From Amphiura filiformis (Eukaryota > Echinodermata > Ophiuroidea > Amphilepidida > Amphiuridae), in NCBI RefSeq assembly GCF_039555335.1, contig NC_092646.1, forward strand, positions 29,751,780-29,815,779: DNA of 64,000 bases. The letters are read 5' to 3'. The notes beneath the pieces were generated by a model. That model did not search any database. It was not told where the DNA came from and worked only from the letters and a program-made list of their open reading frames with translations. Below are positions 6,279 through 61,310 of this stretch, one piece after another (positions within the stretch are counted from its first letter, which is position 1; the number at the start of each line of letters is the position of its first letter). The position numbers and the translations under genes were made by a program.

Positions 6279-7075
6279 CTAACAGAAATTCACCTTTTCA
6301 GAAATATTTGGTTGTGTGATATTAAAGGCTTAATGTACGATTTCCTTCAAATTTTAAATTTGTCATTATATACTCAAAATGCTGAAATAAAACTAGTAAT
6401 AATGATCGGGAATGGTTTCTGTCCATTTTGAGCTGAAATAACGAGGTAACGTGAAAGAAACACTGCTTGTTATTTTGGCCGTTTAACACGCAGTTCAATG
6501 GGCGGCCATAAAGTCATAATTTCTTGAATTCTGACTTTATGTCGAACTTTGCTCTGTTTACCTAAAAACACAACAAATTTGGCTGATTCCATTTAGGTGC
6601 AAGTTGTGACATGTGTAAACATTACAAATATGCAAAAAAATCAGGTTTGAAAAAAATTAACCAAATTCATATTATAAGATCGTATATTATGACTTTAATG
6701 GTAAACATTTTTTCAGAATTGGACAAATGTCCCAGACAAATGTGCAGTAAGTAGTGAGCACACACAAATTACAGACACCCAAGCCCAATGGATGAGTACC
6801 AAGTTATTGAATGGGAGCTATCATGTATGGTCCAATGTGCATATATATCTCTTTCAAGAGTTTAATGGATTAGAAAGTTCCATGAAAGAAGTTTTAGATA
6901 TATTTATATAGTCCAAATATTTAATGATTTTATGCATTTTATTAATTATCAATAATATGATTCTGCTATAAATCTAAATAATTTGGGATGTGTATAATAT
7001 ATGACAGATCACAGATTTGACAGCTCCCAATTAATTTATGGTCAAATAAGTGAAGTCAACAAATTTGAGATTTAT
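5268..7075. other. No gene seen; AT-rich, CA-rich tract and (ATA)n
   Basis: 5860-5940 is C/A-rich (CACACCACC words). 6213-6275 is an (AAT)n microsatellite. No element ends or coding exon are recognised. Confidence 0.5.
6213..6275. repeat. (AAT)n microsatellite
   Basis: About 20 perfect AAT units. Confidence 0.95.
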
Positions 7076-7117
7076 TTTGACATTTTTAGATAATCATTTC
7101 ACATGGATTTAATATTG

Positions 7118-7240
7118 GACTGGACTCGGACCGGACTAAGCTTCGAGTCCGAGTCCTTTGTGTGCGAGTCCGAGCCGAGCCGAGTCTTTTTGTGTCCGAG
7201 TCCGAGCCAAGTCCGAGTCCAACACAAAACGGACTCGAGT
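7118..7240. repeat. GAGTCC/GGACTC minisatellite
   Basis: Imperfect units of GACTCGGAC and GAGTCCGAG type running in both senses. The same array is at 43445-43552 in the inverted B block, with different unit numbers. Confidence 0.75.
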
Positions 7241-7998
7241 CCGCTGCCAATTGCTGTCAACTTTGACGCCATCAACACTATGAACATAACTTAATTTTAT
7301 GCGCTCTCTCGATTTATGAATAATGATTAGGAACTCCAAAGTAGTCAAAATTAATTTAACGTGAAGGATTTTTATAGTGATACAATGACACGTAGTGCAA
7401 TTAAATATAAATTTATGAGATTTTTTAAAAGTGCCAAATTCGACCCGTAGGGTTGTAAATAAAATATATAGCCGGTAGGTAATGATATTGATTAGATATC
7501 CTCCACACGTGTCAAAAATCGGGCGGATTGAAATCTGATGGGAATAGAGCTGAAATCGGTCTTCATAATTGAAAGCCATTTTACAAAATTTTCATAAAAA
7601 ATAGATTGGTATTTCATTTCCATAAAATGTTAGATTTTACTTTCAGATATGTCTCCTTTTAACTTTGAGCTGAACAACTGAAGTAAAGCAAAGAAAATTG
7701 GAATTTACTACCAGCGCCGATATCGCCAATGCGTTTCACTCCGTCGGTCGTGCTACGTGCTGTGTTATGAACATCGTGTATACGCGTCGACTAAATATTT
7801 TCATCGTAATAGTTAAACGACGGTTCCTGCGCTTTATTCAAAATCTCGGTAAACTACAGCATCTAAAGTCTTGATTTTTGCAGATGATGTTAGTTTAATA
7901 AAGTACATTACAATCGTGTAAAACAGAATTTTGAAAAATATTGAAGGCATCCTCTTCAGCAAATGTTACAATATGGCTTTAAATAAAACAAGACTTAC

Positions 7999-8077
7999 TT
8001 TCCAAAGTGGGATTGTGTGAGGCATCCACGCACTTCAAGAAAATTAAGTAAGCAAGCAGCAGAAATTTACATCCCAT
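7999..8077 (-). CDS. Exon 1 (signal peptide), left copy of the Calx-beta gene
   Basis: ATG at 8077 opens 26 codons plus one base and ends at a consensus GTAAGT donor (7998-7993). The peptide starts MGCKFLLLAYLIFLKC and continues VDASHNPTLE: a short n-region with one lysine, a hydrophobic core of about ten residues and small residues near position 19, as in a secretory signal peptide. The phase-1 end joins in frame to exon 2 at 933. Plus-orientation copies lie at 32642 and 42637. The homology extends several hundred bases upstream of the ATG, so a promoter and 5' UTR may be included, but I cannot place a start site. Function follows from the downstream modules and is inferred. Confidence 0.65.
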
Positions 8078-8398
8078 TTTCGTTTCAATTGGAATTTCAG
8101 TCAAAGAAATTCAAATAGGTATGGAGCCATTAAAAAGTATATAGAGTTAAACATCCAACCAATGTAGCAGTAATCAGTTCGCTGCTTTTCTTGTGTCGTC
8201 TATTCTGCTAGACATTCAACAGGTTTATGGCATTGATATACCTCATGCACATCAAAAATGCAAGGTCATTCTAAAGTTTTTCAACCTTATATATATATAT
8301 CTGCTTCTGCAAATGTAAGCTTCTTGAAACTGTGCGTGATCATGCATTGTGTGGGTAAATCATACTACCAATTTCATATTTCACAGTTTCCATTGGAA

Positions 8399-10029
8399 AA
8401 ATTAGTTACTTCAAGTAGTTTTATAATATCCAATGAAAAGACATAATAATCAGTTATAGATAGGAGGATGAATTCCCATATGATCAAAACGATAATGATG
8501 ACCTAAGACTTTTCTTTTAAAGCATCCAGCAAGAAGACCCTACATTTTAGTGCGCCTTCGATTCGTTGTACCTCATGTGTTACACAATTAGCGGGTGATG
8601 GAAAATAGACGTAGAGTGGTTTTTTGGGTACAATTTGATCAAAACTGTGAAATAAGGAGAGAAAACATACAATTTTAACATCACGTCAGTCTGAATTTGC
8701 ACCTTTCATGATCTAGTTAAGTAATTTAGTGAGTTTAAAGCACCTTTTCCAAATGGCCTGAATAATCCCTCATTTGATTTCATGCACCGCCTAGCTTTAA
8801 TGGGTGGTATCCAACATTGAAGGCATATGTGTATTCTCGATCTTGTAGATGACCTCCGGAACACCTGAGTGTAAAAATTCTTCAAACATTTACATCTGAT
8901 TTTGAGACAATAATTAATTAGTGTCTTGATTATGATAAGAAATGAAACTGATACAAATATCAAGTGTATAAAGAGACAGAATGCATGGAGTAAAACTGAG
9001 ATTCTTTAAAACAGAACAATTTAAAATTTTGGAAGCATCTTTCACGACCTTGACTCTAACGATCTTGACTCTGTGGTTCTACCCAGCCTCTGGGTCACAG
9101 AGATTCAGAATAATGACACTACCCCAACATTGTGGACCACTTGCTACTTTCACGTTTTGGTTTCTTCGATATTCAATAATTATTAATTAACAGATTGTCA
9201 TAATTATTCGTATAATATCATGTATGGGAAGTTTGTAATGCCGCCATTTCTTCTAATATTTACCAAGTATGCATAATTGTTTTAACGAGTGATATTTGTG
9301 CTTCTTTGTCAATCCACAGGATTTTGATGATCCTCTTTCTTTATGTTCGCGTCGTTTCAAACATCTAAGATAATCAAATGGTATTTTAAAGACATTTTGT
9401 CGATTGATATTATTGATATTTTCTTTTTAGACACCTGTGCAGGTTCAATTAATTTTTAAATGACATTTGTATAGAAAAAACGAAGCTGAGGTTAATCTTA
9501 ATGGGCTTTGATATTATTTATATTTTCTTTTTAGACACCTGTGCAGGTTCAATTAATTTTTAAATGACATTTGTATAGAAAAAACCAAGCTGAGGTTAAT
9601 GTTAATGGGCTTTGGTTGGATAACTCTAGAACTAATGAGCCATGTTATTTTGTAACGGAACTACGACTATGACAATTATCAAACATCATATATCATTATA
9701 TTTGGTATCAATGTATAGATATTGGTCTCCTTTATCCAAGGATACCAAAATAAGTACAAACATCCCACTCATATGTCGCTATGACGTCATAATGTAAGGG
9801 TACCGATGCCAATTTGGGAAATTCTGGCTATGTACAAAAGTATAGGCAAAATTGGTTTCCGCTAAAAATTCTACAAAATGCGATTTATAAAAGGAAATGA
9901 CTATTTAAAATTAACTAACAAGTAAAAAAAAGGTATATTTACAATAAACACGCTGAATGTCTAATATTGAACAGATCAGTCCCATGATTGACATTTGTTA
10001 ATGGTATATCAGTTAGACATATTCTTCAT
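8399..10029. other. No gene seen; tandem duplication of about 103 bp
   Basis: A tandem duplication near 9410-9615 shares TTTTTAGACACCTGTGCAGG and AATGACATTTGTATAGAAAA. The rest is unassigned AT-rich sequence upstream of the left exon 1. Confidence 0.5.
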
Positions 10030-19513: not shown

Positions 19514-19658
19514 GGATCATCATCATCATCATCATCATTATTATTATCATTCATTATTATTATTATTAATAATTAGTGTTGTTATCATTATTATTATTTC
19601 TCAGGCCTATTAGTGTTATTATTATTATTATTACTATTGTTATTATTATTATTAGGCC

Positions 19659-19735
<77 letters not shown>

Positions 19736-19739
19736 TATA

Positions 19740-19807
<68 letters not shown>
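19449..19807. repeat. Compound (CAT)n and (ATT)n microsatellite
   Basis: (CAT)n from 19449 to about 19539, then (ATT)n with a few GGCCTA interruptions to 19807. The apparent poly-D, poly-N, poly-I and poly-L frames come from this. Confidence 0.95.
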
Positions 19808-19808
<1 letters not shown>

Positions 19809-19869
19809 GCGCCACGTGCCAAACTTGACGCAGAAAGCCACCGTAGAAAAACAAGACGCCCATTGACTA

Positions 19870-20410
19870 ACACGTTTATAGCGCCACATGCCTGATTTTT
19901 TTACTAATTGAATCGAGGGGGCAGAACGCTTTTGTGCTAGAGTCGTGTGTTTACATGATCTGTCATTAATTCGAATCAAAACTAAAAGGGGTACATATCT
20001 GGGTACAATTCTGGTTTACACTGCGCACCCTATATTTTAGGGTTAGGGTTAGGGTTGAGGTTAGGGTCAGGGTTAGGGTTAGGGTTATACTTGTGCACAG
20101 GGTATACCAGAATTGCTCCCATATCTGTTACTGAAAACTACTATGAGCAGTTTGTGGGAAACAAATGAACGTATCTTGATGGCGTTAATTCCATTATGAT
20201 GAAAACATTTAAAAATAGAATCTGCCTGTTACTGTCATTTTGTAGATCCTAGCTTTTGGGCATATTTTATAATTATTTTAATGTTATTTTATGAACAACA
20301 GTAAAACCGTAGAACATGTAGAAGAGGGCACCATCCTAAGGCCAGTTTAACTTCATATTTCATTATTCTTCCGCTGCGTTATTTTAGTAGCATATACATA
20401 GATAACAGGC
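19870..20410. repeat. Block V (inverted partner 25800-26340)
   Basis: Shares, in inverted order, the GCGCCACATGCC, ATTAATTCGAATCAAAA, TTAGGG-core element, GATGGCGTTAATTCCAT and ACATGTAGAAGAGGGCACC landmarks. Confidence 0.8.
20000..20120. mobile_element. Second family of inverted-repeat element with TTAGGG core
   Basis: Ends GGGTACAATTCTGGTTTACA and the complement of GGTATACCAGAATTGCTCCC surround a GGGTTA array with variants. An inverted copy lies at about 26067-26199 within duplicated block V. Confidence 0.7.
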
Positions 20411-25799: not shown

Positions 25800-26340
25800 A
25801 CTGGCTATAAAGGTTATCTATGTAAATTCTACTAAACTAACGCAGCGAAAAATAATGAAATTTGTAGTTAAATTAGAAGGAGGGTGCCCTCTTCTACATG
25901 TTCTATGGTATTTACTGTTGTTCATAAAATAATTATACAATAATGCCCAAACGCTAGGATCTAAGAAATGACAATAACAGGCAGGTTCTCTTTTTAGATG
26001 TTTTCATCATATGGAATTAACGCCATCAAGATACAAACTGTTAGTTTTCAGTAACATATATTATATGGGAATATTTATGGTATACCCCGTGTACAAGTAT
26101 AACCCTAACCCTAATCTTAAGCCTAACCCTAAACCTAACCCCAATCCCAACCCTAACCCTAAAATATAGGGTGCGCAGGGTAAACCAAAATTGTATTGAA
26201 AACTCAAGGTGCGCAGATACCCTTTTAATTTTGATTCGAATTAATGACAGAACACACGACTGTAGCACAAAAGCGTCAAGCCCCCTCGATTCAATTAGTA
26301 AAAGATTTCAGGCATGTGGCGCTATAATACTACTACTACT
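25800..26340. repeat. Block V, inverted copy
   Basis: Partner of 19870-20410. Both copies sit next to trinucleotide microsatellites (19807 and 26349). Confidence 0.8.
26067..26199. mobile_element. Inverted copy of the TTAGGG-core element of 20000-20120
   Basis: CCCTAA-rich core between GTATACCCCGTGTACAAGT and GGTGCGCAGGGTAAACCAAA. The C-rich strand is on plus here, as expected of an inverted duplicate. Confidence 0.7.
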
Positions 26341-26365
26341 ACTACTACTAATAATAATAATGATG

Positions 26366-26445
<80 letters not shown>
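26323..26445. repeat. (ACT)n then (AAT)n microsatellite
   Basis: ACT units to about 26348, then AAT/GAT units to 26445. Confidence 0.95.
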
Positions 26446-26718
26446 TTGGTTAACAGTTATTGTCGTACTATGTTTAAAATGACTTCGTTAGTGCATATGG
26501 TGGTTCCTTATATTATAAGCTAAATCGGCCAAACGATTAAAACAAGAAATAAATCCTGCAAAAACCGGATTTTGGTTCCATGCATGCTACTCCTTGCACA
26601 TTTACGTATTTCAAGAGCTAACAAGAATAACGCATAGACCCGCTCAGGGGGGTCTAGTGACATTTTGCTTCTTGTCATGTTTTGTTATATTGTATGTGTT
26701 TTTATATTATGATATAAC

Positions 26719-32007: not shown

Positions 32008-32641
32008 CCTATAACTTAAGAACTGCATATCGGAGACTGGTTAAACTATACTTTTTCTGTATCCTTATGATGAGAGCAAGACATTGGTATGGTTTTTAAC
32101 AAGATTTGACCAACTTTGAAATTTCGCCCCCTGCATAAGTGGCCATTTTGGATGTGTGCAAATTAGGCACTGTTCCACTACTTAGACTTTTGGGGACTTT
32201 GATATTGTCTTTAATATACTTTTTTTGAAATGAATGGTGATTAAATGGTTTCTGTTGAAATTAGTGGTAGGTTAAGCCCTGATTTCCCTTAATTTGATTG
32301 GCCTATATTTCCAATGGACACTGTGTTATAGCAAATTTGTAGTATGATTTAACCATACAATACATGATCATGTACATGTACAGTTTCAAGAAGCTTACAT
32401 TTGCAAAAGAAGGGATAAGGTTGAGAAACTTTTGAACAGCCTTGCACTTTTGATGTGCATGAGGTATATCAATGCCATAAACCTGTTGAATGTCTAGAAG
32501 AATAGACGACACAAGAAAAGCAGCGAACTGATTACTGCTACATTGGTTGGATGTTTAACTCTACTTTATGGCTCCATTTCTATTTAATTTCTTTGACTGA
32601 AATTCCAACAAATCTGGAAATTTATGTGAACTGAAACGAAA

Positions 32642-32720
32642 ATGGGATGTAAATTTCTGCTGCTTGCTTACTTCATTTTCTTGAAGTGCGTGGATGCCTC
32701 ACACGATCCCAATTCGCAAA
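32642..32720 (+). CDS. Exon 1 (signal peptide), right Calx-beta gene, best candidate
   Basis: ATG at 32642 gives 26 codons plus one base, ending CAAA before a GTAAGT donor. The peptide starts MGCKFLLLAYFIFLKC and continues VDASHDPNSQ, a secretory signal. Its phase-1 end is what exon 2 at 55314 requires; the split codon reads ACT (Thr). The intron would be about 22.6 kb and would contain the RSS-like transposon at 32946-35268, the second exon-1 copy and many repeats. It differs from the left copy at a few residues. Whether it is joined to exon 2 in real transcripts is inference; the frame, the signal peptide and the donor are seen directly. Confidence 0.6.
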
Positions 32721-33016
32721 GTAAGTTTTGCTTTTAGCCATATTGTAATATTTGCTGAAGAGGATGTCCGCAATATTTTTCAAAATTCGGTTTTATCATC
32801 ATCTGCAAAAGAATCAAGACTTTAGATGCTGCAATTTTGTCAAAATCCGTGATTTTGAATAAAGCACAGGAACCGTCGTTTACGATATTACGATGAAAAT
32901 ATTTAGTCGAACGCGTATACACGATGTTCATAACACAGACCGACGCACAGTGGGCCAGAATCACCTCAAAGTGTGCCAAAATTATAAACGGACAATCAAA
33001 CCCATAAAAACACAGT

Positions 33017-33523
33017 AAAATGACTATATTAGGGGTTTTTGAGGCTGAAGAATTCAATGGAGGCATTTTCAAAAATGTATGACGTCATCAAAATGCTGAA
33101 CGGTGATTGGTCGATTATTTTTACAACAGTATTTCAAATGACATATGTTAAAATTGTAATTGAAAAAGCAAAATAGGGGTTCCAAGGGGTGCGAAATTCA
33201 GTGATGACATTTTGAAAAGCGTATGACGTCATTAATATGCTGATATGTGATTGGTCAATTATTCCTCCCACAGTTATTCAAATGCCTGTGTAAGAATTAT
33301 TATAAAAATTTCAAATCGGGGGTTTTAAGGACTGTGGAATCCAATAGAGCCATTTTCCAAAGCATATGACGTCATTAAAATACCGAACCGTGATTGGCTA
33401 ATTACTCTTACAACAGTAATTCAAATGGAAAAGTATTAGCAAATAGCATATTCAAGGTTACACGGACTGCAAAATTCACTGACGGAATTTTCTAATACGT
33501 ATGACATCAATAAAATACTGATG
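33017..33523. repeat. Tandem repeat of about 140 bp with CRE-like and CCAAT-like words
   Basis: Units start at 33082, 33226 and 33369, with partial units on both sides. Each full unit starts ACGTCAT after TATG, giving TATGACGTCAT, and carries GTGATTGG about 20 bases later. The unit from 33504 is decayed (ACATCAA). The word pairs resemble a CRE site (TGACGTCA) followed by an inverted CCAAT box, but no activity can be claimed from sequence. Confidence 0.75.
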
Positions 33524-33884
33524 TTTAATATAAGCAAGCAAACAAACAAACAACCAGCCAGATTAGATGTTGGGGGTGGTTTCTCTCACAAAATTTATAT
33601 ATGATTCTTCCTGCCCGACTCCAAAACGTCGCCATTATCTTAAACATAATTTTGGCCCTAATTTTCAACCCATCACTGTATACCAATTTCCCGCTTGAAA
33701 AAGCAACCAATTTTGCCCAAATTGGGTACTTTTACCAACATGTTTCTCAAAATACACAATGACATACTGGGCGCTTTCGTCTGTGGTGAAAACCCACCCA
33801 TCGCTTTACAAAAAGCACCCCAAAAGGCAAGTCATATACGTATACACTGTCAATGGGAGACCCCCACCCGGATGATACAACTTA

Positions 33885-34550
33885 TTGATTTAATTCACAA
33901 ATTTAATATTTAATTAACGAATCTAATATAATATATAATTTGCAGATTTAATATTAAATTAGTAGATTTAATATTTAATTTATTCAATATTAAATTCACA
34001 GATATAATATTGAATTCACAGATTTGAAATTCAATTCGCGAAATTTATATTAAATTCACGGATTTTGAATTTTAATTCGCAGATTTGATATTTAATTTAC
34101 AAATTTGATATTTAATTCTTGAATTTAATATTAAATTCTCAGGTTTGATATTAAATCTGCGAATTATATATTACATCTACACATTTAATATTTGCGAATT
34201 AAATATTCAATTTGCGAATTAAATATTAAATCTGCGAATTCAAATGCTAATATAATATTAAAATATACGAATATTAAATCTCCAAATTAAATATTAAATC
34301 TGCGAATTAGATATTAAATTCAAGAATTAAATATGAAAATTTCGAATTAAATATAACATTCGCAAAATAAATTTTAAATCTGCCAATTTAATATTAAATC
34401 TGTGAATTAATAAATTATAAATTTAAAATGTGCAGATTTGATATTTAGCCTATATCAAATCGGTGAATTAAATATCAAATCGGTGAATTAAATATTAAAT
34501 CTGCGAATTCAATGTTAAATTTGCGAATTAAATATTAAATTCTAGGCCTA
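33885..34550. repeat. AT-rich degenerate array of AATATTAAAT / CTGCGAATT words
   Basis: Irregular units of roughly 18-26 bp built from ATTTAATATTAAAT, ATTCGCAGATTT and their complements, so the array reads similarly on both strands and could form many small cruciforms. It lies inside the RSS-like element. No coding potential. Confidence 0.7.
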
Positions 34551-35716
34551 CTAGTGTATTAAAAGTTTGTTAAACCAGGATCTGTGGTTAAACTTTATCC
34601 CTCTCTATGCGGCGGTTGTACGGTATTCTCCCATCAAGCTATTAATAGAACTCGGTGCAGATGTTTGTACACGCTGCAGCGCGGTATCTCTTTTCACCTG
34701 AATTTACGATTTTGTGGCCACTTTTACTGGCATAGGGCCTCATAAAACTGACTCCACTGCAGAAGACTGCAGAAAGCTGCAGCTGAATTTGGTACCATCA
34801 CAAAGATTAACCTTTTCTGATTGTGCCTGTATAAGTTTTAAGGCGGGAATCAACGGGAATCTAATCTTTCGAGATCAAATTTGTTAAAATGTAATTTTTC
34901 CTTAGTTTCAAGGACGTTTAAGCCAAAATATTTAATTCCCTGAAGGTTTTCACATTCTTCATATCCTATTGTTATATTTTACAAATAGTTTCTCAAATAG
35001 CTGTGAAAGCACAGATGAATCAGAAATGTCAAAACTAAATTATAGAATTTTACCCCCAAATCATGATTTTTCTAATGAGAAGCAGATTGTGGCAATTTCG
35101 CGTGTTTATTATAAAAAATACCACCTTTTTGAACAAACCAGTGGTGAAATATTTTCAGAAAATATTCTTAGGTTCATTATCTTTCCAAATCGCATAAAAA
35201 AAATTCAAACATTGAAAGTCACTAAAGTAGGGTTTTGGCACACTTTGACTTTGGCCTGGCCCACTGTGCGACGGGGTGAAACGCATTGGCGATATCGGCG
35301 CTGGTAGTAAATTCCAATTTTCTTTGCTTTACTTCAGTTGTTCAGCTCCAAAGTAAAAGGAGACATAAAAAAATCTTTTTATGTAAAAGAAATACTAATC
35401 TATTTTATGGAAATGTTTAGAACATAGCTTTAAATAATTACGAAGAACGATATCAGCTGTATGCCTATAAGATTTTAATCCGCCCAATTTTTGACACGTG
35501 TGGAGGATATCTAATCAATATCATTATCTACCGGCTATTGATTTTATTTGCAACCATACGGGTCGAATTTGGCATTTTATTAATATCTAATTGCACTTCG
35601 TGTCATTGTATCAGCATAAAATTCCTTCACACTAAATTAATTTTGACTACTTTAATACAAAACTTAATTGGAGTTTCTAGTTATTATTCATAAATCGAAA
35701 GAGCGCACAAAATTAA

Positions 35717-36379
35717 GGTAAATTTTGACATGACCATAGTAGATCTGTTATCAACCCGAGTTATCAACATGATCAAACATATCATGCTGTGCTCACTGCC
35801 CAGTGGTCTTGCATGTCTCCAAACAAGGTGACAGGAGGAGAAAATATCAAACATTACTTCAAAGAAAGTATATCATAACTTGAACGTGTTTGGTGTCAAT
35901 CTGGACTGAAATTGAGTCATGCACCAGATTTCTTTGATTATAGCAAAATTCACCCACAAACAAAAAAAACATATCCAGCTCAATTCATATCTGCCTAAAT
36001 TCTTCTAGTAAAATAAGCAAAGTCATCGCCACTAGAAGTGCCTACTCTAATCTTGAATTGTTTATTTCGCATGGTCATCAGCTGTCATCATGCATTCTAG
36101 CAGACTAGTCAGTGACTGAATTCCATGGCTTGGAGTGCATGAATGTAAATTAGTTGAATAGAACTCAAGACGAAACATAGTACACTGACATATGAGCCAA
36201 GCTTTGGTCTAACCCAACTATATGCATGCCAATCTGACAACAATAGCAGTATGAGCCCAAATTAGACATAAATTCCGCCAACATTGGGTGAAATAAATAA
36301 AGTTATTAAAAGATAAGAGACCCACATAGCACCCGAATGGGCTATTTTTAAGTGCAAATTCCATATTAGTGCCACTGCC
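35717..36379. other. No gene seen
   Basis: Unassigned AT-rich sequence between the B and R1 blocks. Confidence 0.45.
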
Positions 36380-42389: not shown

Positions 42390-42636
42390 GCACGGATAAG
42401 GTTGAGAAATTTTTGAATGACCTTGCATATAATATTATACATGTTGGTGATAGTACTTTTGATGTGCATGAGGTATGTCAATGCCATAAACCTGTTGAAT
42501 GTCTAGCTTAATATACGACACATATAAAGCAGCGAACTGATTACTGCTACATTGGTTGGATTTTTAACTCTATATACTTGTTAATGGCTCCATTCCTATT
42601 TGAATTGTTTTGACTGAAATTCCAAGTGAAACGAAA

Positions 42637-42696
42637 ATGGGATCTAAATTTCTGTTGCTTGCTCACTTCATTTTCTTGAAGTGCGTAATTCGCAAA
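42637..42696 (+). pseudogene. Third copy of exon 1, frame-broken
   Basis: The sequence encodes MGSKFLLLAHFIFLKC and then lacks 19 nt present in the 32642 copy (its GGATGCC...CCC segment). The GTAAGT donor is kept, but the exon is 60 nt and ends in phase 0, so splicing to the exon at 55314 would shift the frame. The earlier GTAATT after codon 16 is also phase 0. This copy is closest to exon 2 and shares the upstream block with the other copies. It is probably a dead alternative first exon, unless an unseen donor or linker exon restores phase. Confidence 0.6.
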
Positions 42697-43444
42697 GTAA
42701 GTCTTGCTTTTATTTAAAGCCATATTGTAACATTTGCTGAAGAGGATGCCTTCAATACTTTTCAAAATTCTGTTTTTACACGATTGTAATGTACTTTATT
42801 AAACTAACATCATCTGCAAAAATCAAGACTTTAGATGCTGTGGTTTATCGAGATTTTGAATAAAGCACAGGAACCGTCGTTTAACTATTACGATGAATAT
42901 ATAGTCGAGCGCGTATACACGATGTTCATAACACAGTACGTAGCACGACCGACGGAGTGAAACGCATTGGCGATATCGGCGCTGATAGTAAATTCCAATT
43001 TTCTTAGCTTTACTTCAGTTGTTCAGCTAAAAATTAAAAGGAGATATATCTGAAAGTAAAATCTGACATTTTATGGAAATGAAATATCAATCGATTTTTT
43101 ATGAAAATGCTGCAACGTTGCGTTGTAAATTATGAAGAACGATTTTAGCTGTATTCCCATCAGATTTCAATCCCCCCGATTTTTGACACGTGTGGAGGAT
43201 ACCTAATCAATATCATTATCTACTGGCTTTTATTTGCAACCATACGGGTCGAATTTGGCACTTTAAAAAATCTCATAAATTAATGTTTAATTGCACTACG
43301 TGTCATTGTATCACTATAAAAATCCTTCACGTTGAATTAATTTTGACTACTTTGGAGTTCCTAATCATTATTCATAAATCGAGAGAGCGCACAAAATTAA
43401 GTTATGTTCATAGTGTTGATGGCGTCAAATTTGACAGCCATTGG

Positions 43445-43552
43445 CAGCGGACTCGAGTCCATTTTGTGTTGGACTCGGACTTGGCTCGGACTCGGCCACA
43501 AAAGGACTCGGACTCGAAGCCTAGTCCGGTGCGAGTCCAGTCCAATATTAAA
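43445..43552. repeat. GAGTCC/GGACTC minisatellite, inverted copy
   Basis: Counterpart of 7118-7240. Confidence 0.75.
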
Positions 43553-43585
43553 TCCATGTGAAATGATTATCTAAAAATTTCAAAA

Positions 43586-46854: not shown

Positions 46855-47155
46855 AGGATGGTCAATGAGAGTCTTTGTGGGTCAAGGGGTGTCGACTATC
46901 ATGGTGGGTCAAGGGGTGTCAGAGTGGGTCAAGGGATATCAAGGGGGTCATTTATTTATTTATCAATGGGTCAATGGGGTCATGGTGGGTCAAGAGGTAT
47001 CATGGAGAGAAAGTGCGTGTCATTGTGGGTCACGGGGTGTCACTGTGGGTCAAGGGTGTCATTGTTGGTCACGGGGTGTCATTGTTGTCACGGGGTGTCA
47101 TGATGGGTCATGTGGTGTCATGGGCGAACATGGTTGGTCAAGGGTGTCATGATGG
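46855..47155. repeat. Minisatellite of GTGGGTCAAGGGGTGTCAT type
   Basis: About 14 imperfect units of 17-22 bp (GGGTCA...GGTGTCA) interrupted once by TTTATTTATTT. All three forward frames stay open, so several glycine/valine-rich frames appear; they are artefacts. Confidence 0.85.
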
Positions 47156-48310: not shown

Positions 48311-50878
48311 CTTCACTTTTCACTTAAAGCTTTCCTCCCATGACACAGGTAGGTCCTGGAGATAGCTGCCTAGCCACTATGCTTCGCCACTCAGCTCTGT
48401 TGTTTGCCATCCGACCGGCTTCTACTACGGATTGGATTCCCACTGCACTGCAGTTTGCTTTGATGTTGTCCATCCAGCGCATTGGGGTCTTCCTTTAGGT
48501 CGTTGCCCTGGGATTCTTCCTTCTAATACGACTTTTGGATATCTGGATGGAGGCATTCTTTTCACATGGCCATAGTAGGACAGCTGTTTTGCACGGATCT
48601 TGTTCATTACAGTGCACTGGTAATCAAGGGTGTCTCTGATTGAGGTGTTCCTAATCCTGTCCCTTCTAGTAACACCCAGGATTTTTCTGAGACAAGCCAT
48701 TTCAAATACCAGAAGTCGCTGCTCATCACGTTTTTGATTGTCCAGGCTTCAGAGGCATAGGTTGCTATAGAAAGCACCAGTACTTTGTACAATTCCAATT
48801 TTGTTATGGTGGATATTTCTTTGGATTTCCAGATGGGGTTGAGTTTTTGCATGATGCCCATGGCCAAGCCAATTCTCCTTTTGATGTCTTTCTCGCTGCT
48901 TGCCTTTTCAGTGATCACTCCACCTAGATAGATGAATGATTCCACCTGCTCAAGGGTGGAATTTCCAATGGATATGGTGGCTTTTGCTGTTTCTCTACCA
49001 ATCACCTGGACTTCGGTTTTAGCGATGTTTATTGTCAGACCAAACCTCATGCTTTCATTGTGTACTTTGTCGACTAGAGTTTGGAGGTTAATTTCAGAGT
49101 CGGCCAGTAAAACAATATCATCGGCAAATCTCAGGTTGTTGATGAGCTGTCCTTGAATTGTAATTCCAATGCCGACATCTTCAATAGCTAGGCGTAGGAC
49201 CAGTTCCAGCAAGATGTTAAACAGCTGGGGGGAGAGAATGCATCCCTGTCTGACTCCTGTTTGAGTGGTGAACCAGTTTGTCAGCTCTTCATTCACTCTT
49301 ACTGCACTTTTAGAGGTGTTATATAAGGCTTGGAGAAGTCTAACCATTTTTCTAGAGTAGCCTAGGTGGTCCATAGCCTTCCAAAGACCTTCTTGCCAAA
49401 CAGTATCAAAAGCTTTTTGATAGTCGATGTAGCAGCAGTATAGTGGTTTCCCTATCTCCGTGCATTTTTCAGCCAGTTGTCGTAGCGAAAACAATTGGTC
49501 CACTGTACTCCTGCCTGCTCTAAATCCTGCCTGAGATTCTGAGAGGATCTCTTCAGTTTTCTTCTGGATTCTAGATTGGATGATCGAGCAAAATACTTTC
49601 CCTGCCAAGCTCAGGAGGCTGATACCTCTGTAATTACCACAGTCCATTTTATCCTTTTTCTTAAATATGGGGACAATGATTGCCTTCCCCCAGTCCTCAG
49701 GAATTACTTCAGACTCCCATATCTTGTTACAGAGTTTTAGAAGAGCATTACATCCAGCTTCTCCTGCTGCCTTGATTTCTTCCGCTGATATACCATCTTC
49801 TCCTGCTGCTTTATTTCCCTTGAGGCGTTTGATGGCCAGTTCCACTTCAGATTTGAGAATGTGGGGCTCTATGTCTTCAGTTGAAGTACTTGGTAGAGAC
49901 TGTAAGATACTTGTATCGGATGGGATGGGTTGATTATACAGCTCTTCATAGTTTTCTTTCCATCTGTCCTTTATTTTCTTGTCATCGGTGAGCACCTCGC
50001 CACCTTTGTCCTTTTTACACCTCTCATACGAGTAGATTTTGATCCAGTGATGGTCTTGATGGTAGTGTAAACCTCTTTGGTTTTCTTTGCATCATTTGCA
50101 TGCTCCACATCTTTGCACAGATTTTGAAGCCATACTTCTTTGCACTCTTTACACTTCCGTTTTATTTCTCTGTTGAGAAAGTTGTACCTTGGCTTTTTTG
50201 AGTTGTCTTTGAGTCTTTCCTGCTTCACCTTACTTCTTTCTTCCGTCAGCTTAAGAACTTCGGCAGTTAACCAAGGTTTTTGTCTCTGAGGTTTCTTTGC
50301 TCCTAGGACCTTGTCAGCTGTTTCATTAAAGCCTGACTTAATATTCTGCCATAGCTCTTCCGTCTCTATGTCTGTGTCGGGTAGTTCAATTAGTGGGTTA
50401 AATTTTCCACCAATTGTTACTTGGTAGTCACTGTAAGTCTGCTGTAGGTACAGTTTGCTTACATCAAATTTCTTGATCTTGTATTGTTTCCCTCTGGATC
50501 TAAGTTTCAGTTTAATGTTGGCTAAAACAAGTTGGTGGTCAGATCCGATGTCTGCGCTGGGAAAGCTGCGCGAGGAAGTCACGCTCGTTTTCCATTTTGT
50601 CGTATTAGGATAAAATCGATCTTGTTCCTTGTGGAACCATCTGGGGATTCCCAGGTCCACTGGCGACTTGGTTTGGATTCTTTGAAGAGAGTGTTTGTGA
50701 TACACAGGCTATTCGATGAACAAAAGCTGAGCAGCTTTTCACCTCTGTCGTTTGCTTCTCCAATACCAAACTTCCCAATAACGCCATTCCATGGTTCCCA
50801 GTCGATACCAACTTTCGCGTTGAAATCACCCATGATGATAAGGATGTCTTGGGAAGGTGTTTTATTTATTTCCAATTG
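48311..50878 (-). mobile_element. LINE B: APE-type non-LTR retrotransposon with 13-bp duplication
   Basis: CAAATTTGCTTCA is at 48298-48310 and 50879-50891. The element is 5'-truncated within the endonuclease, and the 3' end near 48311 has an AAGTGAAAAGTGAAG-like tail. It belongs to the RTE/CR1-like group judging from endonuclease-RT order and the GHVKRMP / GRPKGRPQ C-terminal module; the clade is inference. Confidence 0.85.
48607..49995 (-). pseudogene. LINE B reverse transcriptase
   Basis: Long frame of 462 residues. Landmarks: NKAAGEDGISAE (about 61-72), IIVPIFKKKD (106-115), NYRGISLLS, QAGFRAGRSTVDQLF, YIDYQKAFDT (motif A, Asp191), GVRQGCILSPQLFN (247-260), RFADDIVLLA (catalytic FADD at 290-293) and YLGGV. 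After about residue 422 the frame shifts; the true continuation is LGVTRRDRIRNTSIR and YYGHVKRMPPSRYP at 48700-48425, then a further shift. The catalytic aspartates are intact, but the ORF is broken. Confidence 0.9.
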
Positions 50879-50881
50879 CAA
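49971..50881 (-). pseudogene. LINE B endonuclease (APE-like), truncated
   Basis: IIMGDFNAKVG (catalytic Asp-Phe-Asn) near 50835, NKIDFILIR and, in another frame, SADIGSDHQLVLANI (GSDH motif) define an apurinic-type endonuclease that nicks target DNA. The N-terminal part is missing and one frameshift separates the two pieces. A basic linker of about 150 residues leads into the RT. Confidence 0.85.
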
Positions 50882-50891
50882 ATTTGCTTCA

Positions 50892-51137
50892 GTAAAAATA
50901 AACCCCAGGCTGGCGACTTGAGAATCGGTGCAGAACCACTGTCATACGTCATTTACGGAAGCTAAGGTCCTTGGGATTTATCTTCAGGACAACCTCAAGT
51001 GGGACACCCAGGTTAATAACATGCTTAAAAAGCCAATAAGAGGTTGTTTATGCTAAGGTCCCTTAAGAAAGAGTTTGTGTGGATAAAATTCGGGCTCGTG
51101 TTCTTCCCCCGTTTGAAGCGAAATTAATTGTCAAGGC
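50892..51137 (+). pseudogene. LINE A, 3' continuation
   Basis: EAKVLGIYLQDNLKWDTQV follows KLNPSKC after about 50 bp, the usual order of the post-catalytic region (LGV-L---L-W--H). It is separated from 48297 only by LINE B. Confidence 0.75.
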
Positions 51138-60546: not shown

Positions 60547-60656
60547 AATCATCCTTTGTGCTTTGATCTAATTGACGGTACCCGCGGAGCCGTGGATTAT
60601 ATTGATTGATCAACTATGAAAAGATTGTCGGTTCATGTCATGTTGGCTTTTAATAT
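60547..60656. repeat. 110-bp direct repeat, copy 1
   Basis: Identical over 110 bases to 61201-61310 (begins AATCATCCTTTGTGCTTTGA, contains GGTACCCGCGGAGCCGTGGA). LTR-like in position. Confidence 0.9.
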
Positions 60657-61061: not shown

Positions 61062-61200
61062 AATGAAATTCGAAAGATATACACACGGTTATTTTATTAT
61101 ATTAAATAAATGAAAGCGACACAGGACACATGGGAACAAAGTCATTTCTCTTATTGGAAGGTAGGGTGGCCCTGAAAAGGGCCTTTGGGTTTATTAAACA

Positions 61201-61310
61201 AATCATCCTTTGTGCTTTGATCTAATTGACGGTACCCGCGGAGCCGTGGATTATATTGATTGATCAACTATGAAAAGATTGTCGGTTCATGTCATGTTGG
61301 CTTTTAATAT
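61201..61310. repeat. 110-bp direct repeat, copy 2
   Basis: Exact copy of 60547-60656; the interior between them is 544 bp. Confidence 0.9.

Follow-up and report, generated by a model that had tools for sequence, protein, structure and literature searches.

A probable non-autonomous Transib-type transposon with two-block ends, inserted in a repeated block of the Amphiura filiformis genome

The window, a 64,000-nucleotide stretch of Amphiura filiformis DNA, holds a transposon in a block of host sequence (block C) that also occurs, uninterrupted, as two paralogous blocks (A and B). The initial annotation had placed this element at 32941..35273. The element is indeed located there, but that span takes in both copies of the CGACG duplication, and the element proper is ten bases shorter. 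The features of the locus are as follows.

32946..35268, no strand assigned: transposon of 2323 bp, no transposase gene recognised
32941..32945, no strand assigned: left target site duplication CGACG, occurring once in each of the two empty sites
35269..35273, no strand assigned: right target site duplication CGACG, occurring once in each of the two empty sites
32946..32958, plus strand: left terminal motif CACAGTGGGCCAG, beginning CACAGTG, identical to the right end at 13/13 positions
35256..35268, minus strand: right terminal motif CACAGTGGGCCAG, identical to the left end at 13/13 positions
32959..32966, plus strand: left variable linker of 8 bp, containing all six mismatches of the 36-bp ends
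32967..32981, plus strand: left inner motif CAAAGTGTGCCAAAA, overlapping the proposed nonamer and identical in both ends
35233..35247, minus strand: right inner motif CAAAGTGTGCCAAAA, identical to the left inner motif
33032..33545, no strand assigned: tandem repeat of ~143-bp units, inside the element
33888..34545, no strand assigned: AT-rich array of 20-bp units, 658 bp, GC 0.18
32305..32940, no strand assigned: host block C, left part, a repeated block hit by the insertion
35274..35720, no strand assigned: host block C, right part, a repeated block hit by the insertion
42457..43585, no strand assigned: block B, a paralogue whose site is unoccupied, with a single CGACG at 42950-42954
7075..8402, minus strand: block A, an inverted paralogue whose site is unoccupied (plus-strand CGTCG at 7742-7746)

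Elsewhere in the window, a LINE-type element lies on the minus strand (48607-50941), with frames for a reverse transcriptase (Pfam RVT_1, PF00078, E 4.3e-37) and for part of an endonuclease (Pfam Exo_endo_phos_2, PF14529, E 2.5e-06). A histone 3' UTR stem-loop (Rfam RF00032) was detected at 61143-61188, also on the minus strand, with 38.3 bits at a cut-off of 34, and is adjoined by a 110-bp exact repeat (60547-60656 and 61201-61310). The window has 29 frames of at least 110 aa, of which 27 were given to Pfam, the low-complexity frames 19566-20015 and 26045-26482 being omitted. Among these 27, no match to a histone family was found. Apart from RVT_1 and Exo_endo_phos_2 none of them had a match at the curated cut-off, and none matched a transposase or RAG1.

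From left to right, the interior of the transposon consists of the ~143-bp tandem units, a stretch in which no repeats were recognised, the AT array, and 723 bp reaching to the right end. The tandem repeat amounts to 2.8 copies (33032-33427) followed by a decayed partial fourth, and three of the four units contain the palindrome TGACGTCA, known as the CRE site. The first and second parts of the AT array are oppositely oriented, and a strand of the array could form a long hairpin from these mutually inverted parts. A nested insertion of the array is not supported, as 33801-33900 and 34531-34640 have no words of 6-13 bp in common.

Two stop-to-stop frames of at least 110 aa overlap the element (116 and 123 aa), and each of them runs out through one of its ends. 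An uninterrupted transposase gene in the element is excluded. The 12 frame-halves of the element outside the AT array matched no Pfam family at E values up to 1, and the 123-aa frame had no match among solved structures, also at E up to 1. The Pfam result is compatible with a decayed transposase remnant or a gene in short exons, either of which may be present. RAG1L and RAG2L likewise had no Pfam match in the 12 frame-halves, an absence that is expected for a non-autonomous copy.

The flanks of block C were joined, leaving out the element and one CGACG, and compared with blocks A and B. Across the junction, the joined sequence is 86.9% identical to block A (963/1108 positions) and 81.8% identical to block B (874/1068 positions). 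Both paralogous blocks hold a single CGACG at the unoccupied site, at 42950 in block B and, inverted, at 7742 in block A, just as the initial annotation had reported. Its statement that insertion is demonstrated here rather than inferred is therefore upheld, and the element is confirmed as a real transposon insertion. Block C also differs from A and B near this site in missing 11 bp that both of them contain, 2-3 bp outside the left duplication (32937-32938 versus 42936-42947).

With one extra base on each side, the target site reads C[CGACG]G. Because CGACG is palindromic around its centre, an outward shift of the element's boundary by 1 or 2 bp is possible and gives a 3-bp (GAC) or a 1-bp (A) duplication, with ends that read GCACAGTG or CGCACAGTG, respectively. 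Either reading is consistent with the empty sites. A 5-bp duplication presupposes that the element starts at CAC; with longer ends, 3 or 1 bp fit as well. An inward shift by 1 bp (leaving a 2-bp GC repeat) was rejected, since the extra CGACG-like stretch that it predicts is absent from the empty sites in A and B. hAT or P elements, with their 8-bp duplications, were rejected because the 8-bp flanks differ (GACCGACG versus CGACGGGG). Tc1/mariner elements duplicate TA and piggyBac elements TTAA; the duplication found here is neither, and both were rejected for that reason. Duplication lengths of hobo, P and the S-element are given in PMC3276498.

CACAGTG opens both ends of the element, and the terminal repeats are 36 bp long with 30/36 positions identical, all of which agrees with the initial annotation. 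The agreement is unevenly distributed. Left and right agree throughout positions 1-13 (13/13) and 22-36 (15/15), while in the linker between them (positions 14-21) only 2/8 agree, and all six mismatches are found there. The probability of all mismatches falling inside that linker is 1.4e-5, and 4e-4 when all 29 possible 8-bp stretches are allowed for. This confinement of the mismatches to 8 bp suggests that each end has two distinct blocks of importance.

The inner block resembles the outer one. In both ends the inner CAAAGTGTGCCAA, the first 13 bases of CAAAGTGTGCCAAAA, matches the terminal CACAGTGGGCCAG at 10/13 positions and lies exactly 21 bp from it. Within 120 bp of each end no other same-strand match to the terminal 13-mer exceeds 6/13, and the best inverted match within the same distance reaches 6 (left) and 7 (right) of 13. 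A match at the 10/13 level occurs at 0.016% of window positions, or ~0.5% over 33 offsets, with the element's own copies counted. There is moderate evidence that the inner block is a second copy of the terminal motif; it is no stronger than moderate because the resemblance was spotted post hoc and the two ends are not independent. The outer 13-bp copy carries the exact heptamer of the recombination signal sequence (RSS), and the inner copy extends into the region of the nonamer.

The initial annotation had read the same region as a nonamer at 23-bp spacing. Its counts for the nonamer ACAAAAACC at 23 bp from the heptamer, 7/9 at the right end and 5/9 at the left, were reproduced, but the reading is weaker than it was presented. 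Genuine RSS-like ends, with a nonamer after a 23-bp spacer, would be compatible with Transib, and Transib ends with a heptamer and nonamer-like blocks at 20-22 bp, some of them in a 12/23 arrangement, are described in PMC8355894. The 7/9 match of the right end is also fairly uncommon, as 0.31% of window 9-mers match at 7/9 or better. However, 7.7% of window 9-mers match at least as well as the left end does, and a spacing of 22 bp gives the same scores as 23 bp at both ends. The nonamer is weak evidence for these reasons. CCAAAA, the part of the nonamer common to both ends, falls within the inner block, the one resembling the terminal motif, and sequence conservation begins 8-9 bp earlier than the nonamer would; for this reason a doubled terminal motif is preferred, and true 23-bp RSS-like ends appear improbable.

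The whole 64-kb window was scanned for CAC...GTG pairs lying 80-8000 bp apart with equal 5-bp flanks. Three pairs had ends alike at 10/13 positions or more, and only this element reached 13/13. In 20 first-order Markov simulations 0-2 such pairs were found each time, with 12/13 as the best. A second Transib-like element in the window is not supported by the other two equal-flank pairs, which are alike at only 10/13, a level that the simulations also give. CACAGTG alone is not rare, with 10 occurrences on the two strands of the window. Loose matches to CACAGTGGGCCAG (up to 3 mismatches) number 20, of which 16 are outside the element; this is an excess, as 6.9 were expected and the maximum in 100 shuffles was 12, and several of the matches sit in paralogous or tandem repeats. 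None of the 16 matches outside the element is accompanied by the inner motif at the 21-bp offset; the highest two-block score elsewhere in the window, 19/26, is at 46900 in a local repeat.

A blastn search of the element without its AT array against the rest of the window gave no second copy at E values up to 0.01. Two patterns of the two-block end had 0 matches each in viral contigs, and one pattern had 0 matches in prokaryote genome contigs; these zeros are of little weight because such collections are not expected to contain this DNA. Literature searches with literal end-like strings yielded no titles or abstract starts on transposons among the matches listed. With Transib end strings, the word Transib appeared in none of the matches listed and the RSS topic in one.

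Taken on its sequence, the element is probably a non-autonomous cut-and-paste DNA transposon of Transib type, and Transib, whose members are related to the enzyme responsible for antibody gene rearrangement, appears to be the best-fitting superfamily. Three features underlie this reading: the ends begin with CAC, 5 bp are duplicated, and the target conforms to CGNCG. Ends beginning with CAC and 5-bp duplications are common to Transib, RAG and RAG-like transposons (PMC7204232). Here the terminal inverted repeats begin with CAC, the duplication is 5 bp (3 or 1 bp if the ends are moved outward), and the target is both palindromic and of the CGNCG type, although this is one site only. CGNCG is named as the Transib target site in PMC4735498, and in a strand-transfer structure of mouse RAG the target is 5'-CGCCG (PMC11844651). 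Duplications of 5 bp were found in 532/533 hopper and 7/7 transib2 insertions (PMC3276498). The target is not uniform in the Transib superfamily, since according to the same source hopper and transib2 use a palindromic 7-bp motif, CCANTGG, rather than CGNCG.

Alternatively, the element may belong to a different cut-and-paste superfamily, duplicating 3 bp (GAC) or 1 bp (A) and having GCACAGTG or CGCACAGTG as its ends, or to an undescribed superfamily with 5-bp duplications. After the outward shift by 1 or 2 bp the ends are still complementary and the empty sites still agree. The combination of CAC-first ends, 5 bp and CGNCG would then be pure coincidence, however, and we consider this explanation unlikely. 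To our knowledge, none of the superfamilies with 3-bp duplications begins with GCACAGTG.

The initial annotation had proposed a non-autonomous element mobilised by a Transib or RAG-like transposase. Its non-autonomous nature is well supported and Transib is the best fit, but the RAG-like half of the proposal is disfavoured by the sequence of the ends. A RAG-like transposase (RAG1L/RAG2L, of ProtoRAG or TransibSU type) in place of Transib would account for the CAC start and the 5-bp duplication equally, non-autonomous RAGL elements have been reported in an oyster and several deuterostomes (both PMC7204232), and the first 7 bp are the RSS heptamer consensus as quoted in PMC8289069. Against this, the ends agree with the protostome RAGL consensus CACTWMCAAACKTYKBB at only 6/17 and 5/17 positions, with GGC at end positions 8-10 where the consensus has AAA. 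ProtoRAG ends, unlike those found here, start with CACTATG and bear GCCATCTTG after 27 and 31 bp (PMC8289069). The comparison was made letter by letter for the protostome consensus and ProtoRAG, and by published description for the starfish ends. The starfish TransibSU-1_PM has 13-bp identical ends, the outermost 7 bp of which are said to closely resemble Transib and the RSS (PMC4411706). Because of this description a RAG-like transposase keeps a small probability, and overall we regard it as decidedly unlikely.

For a Transib-type element, mobilisation would proceed as follows. A Transib transposase supplied by another copy would act on the transposase-less element, binding two spaced sites per end, the terminal CACAGTGGGCCAG and, 21 bp inward, the inner CAAAGTGTGCCAA. 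It would cut directly outside CAC, the element would insert at CGACG through an attack staggered by 5 bp, and the five target bases would be duplicated during gap repair. The Transib identity of the enzyme, the role of both motifs as its binding sites, and the place where it is encoded are all putative.

At this locus a clean insertion can be checked against empty sites. As a lone copy that lacks its enzyme, the element amounts to an ordinary annotation of mobile DNA, and the doubled motif is the one feature of the element worth following. It could be imagined that the heptamer-nonamer signal began as a duplicated Transib terminal motif, that is, as two direct 13-bp copies of a transposase site placed 21 bp (two helical turns) apart. 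This is a long shot, which we put forward as very improbable. If the doubled motif at 21 bp is kept in other copies, it would be a testable idea for the origin of the two-part recombination signal.

Among known systems, RAGL and ProtoRAG elements resemble this one in the CAC start and the 5-bp duplication, but differ in that the ends here have no A-rich tract at positions 8-10 and no remnant of RAG1L or RAG2L was recognised in the element. In addition, the inner block is unlike the GCCATCTTG described for ProtoRAG. The 23-RSS has the same consensus heptamer, CACAGTG, exactly. However, the nonamer positions here match at 5/9 and 7/9 with a spacing of 22 or 23 bp, and conservation of the inner block begins 8-9 bp ahead of the nonamer position. 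A possible difference from Transib lies in the inner block, which here repeats the terminal motif instead of forming a clear A-rich nonamer. In other respects the element is like the non-autonomous members of Transib, with CAC-first repeats, a 5-bp duplication, a palindromic target of the CGNCG type and no recognised transposase, and its site C[CGACG]G is laid out like the CCANTGG reported for hopper and transib2.
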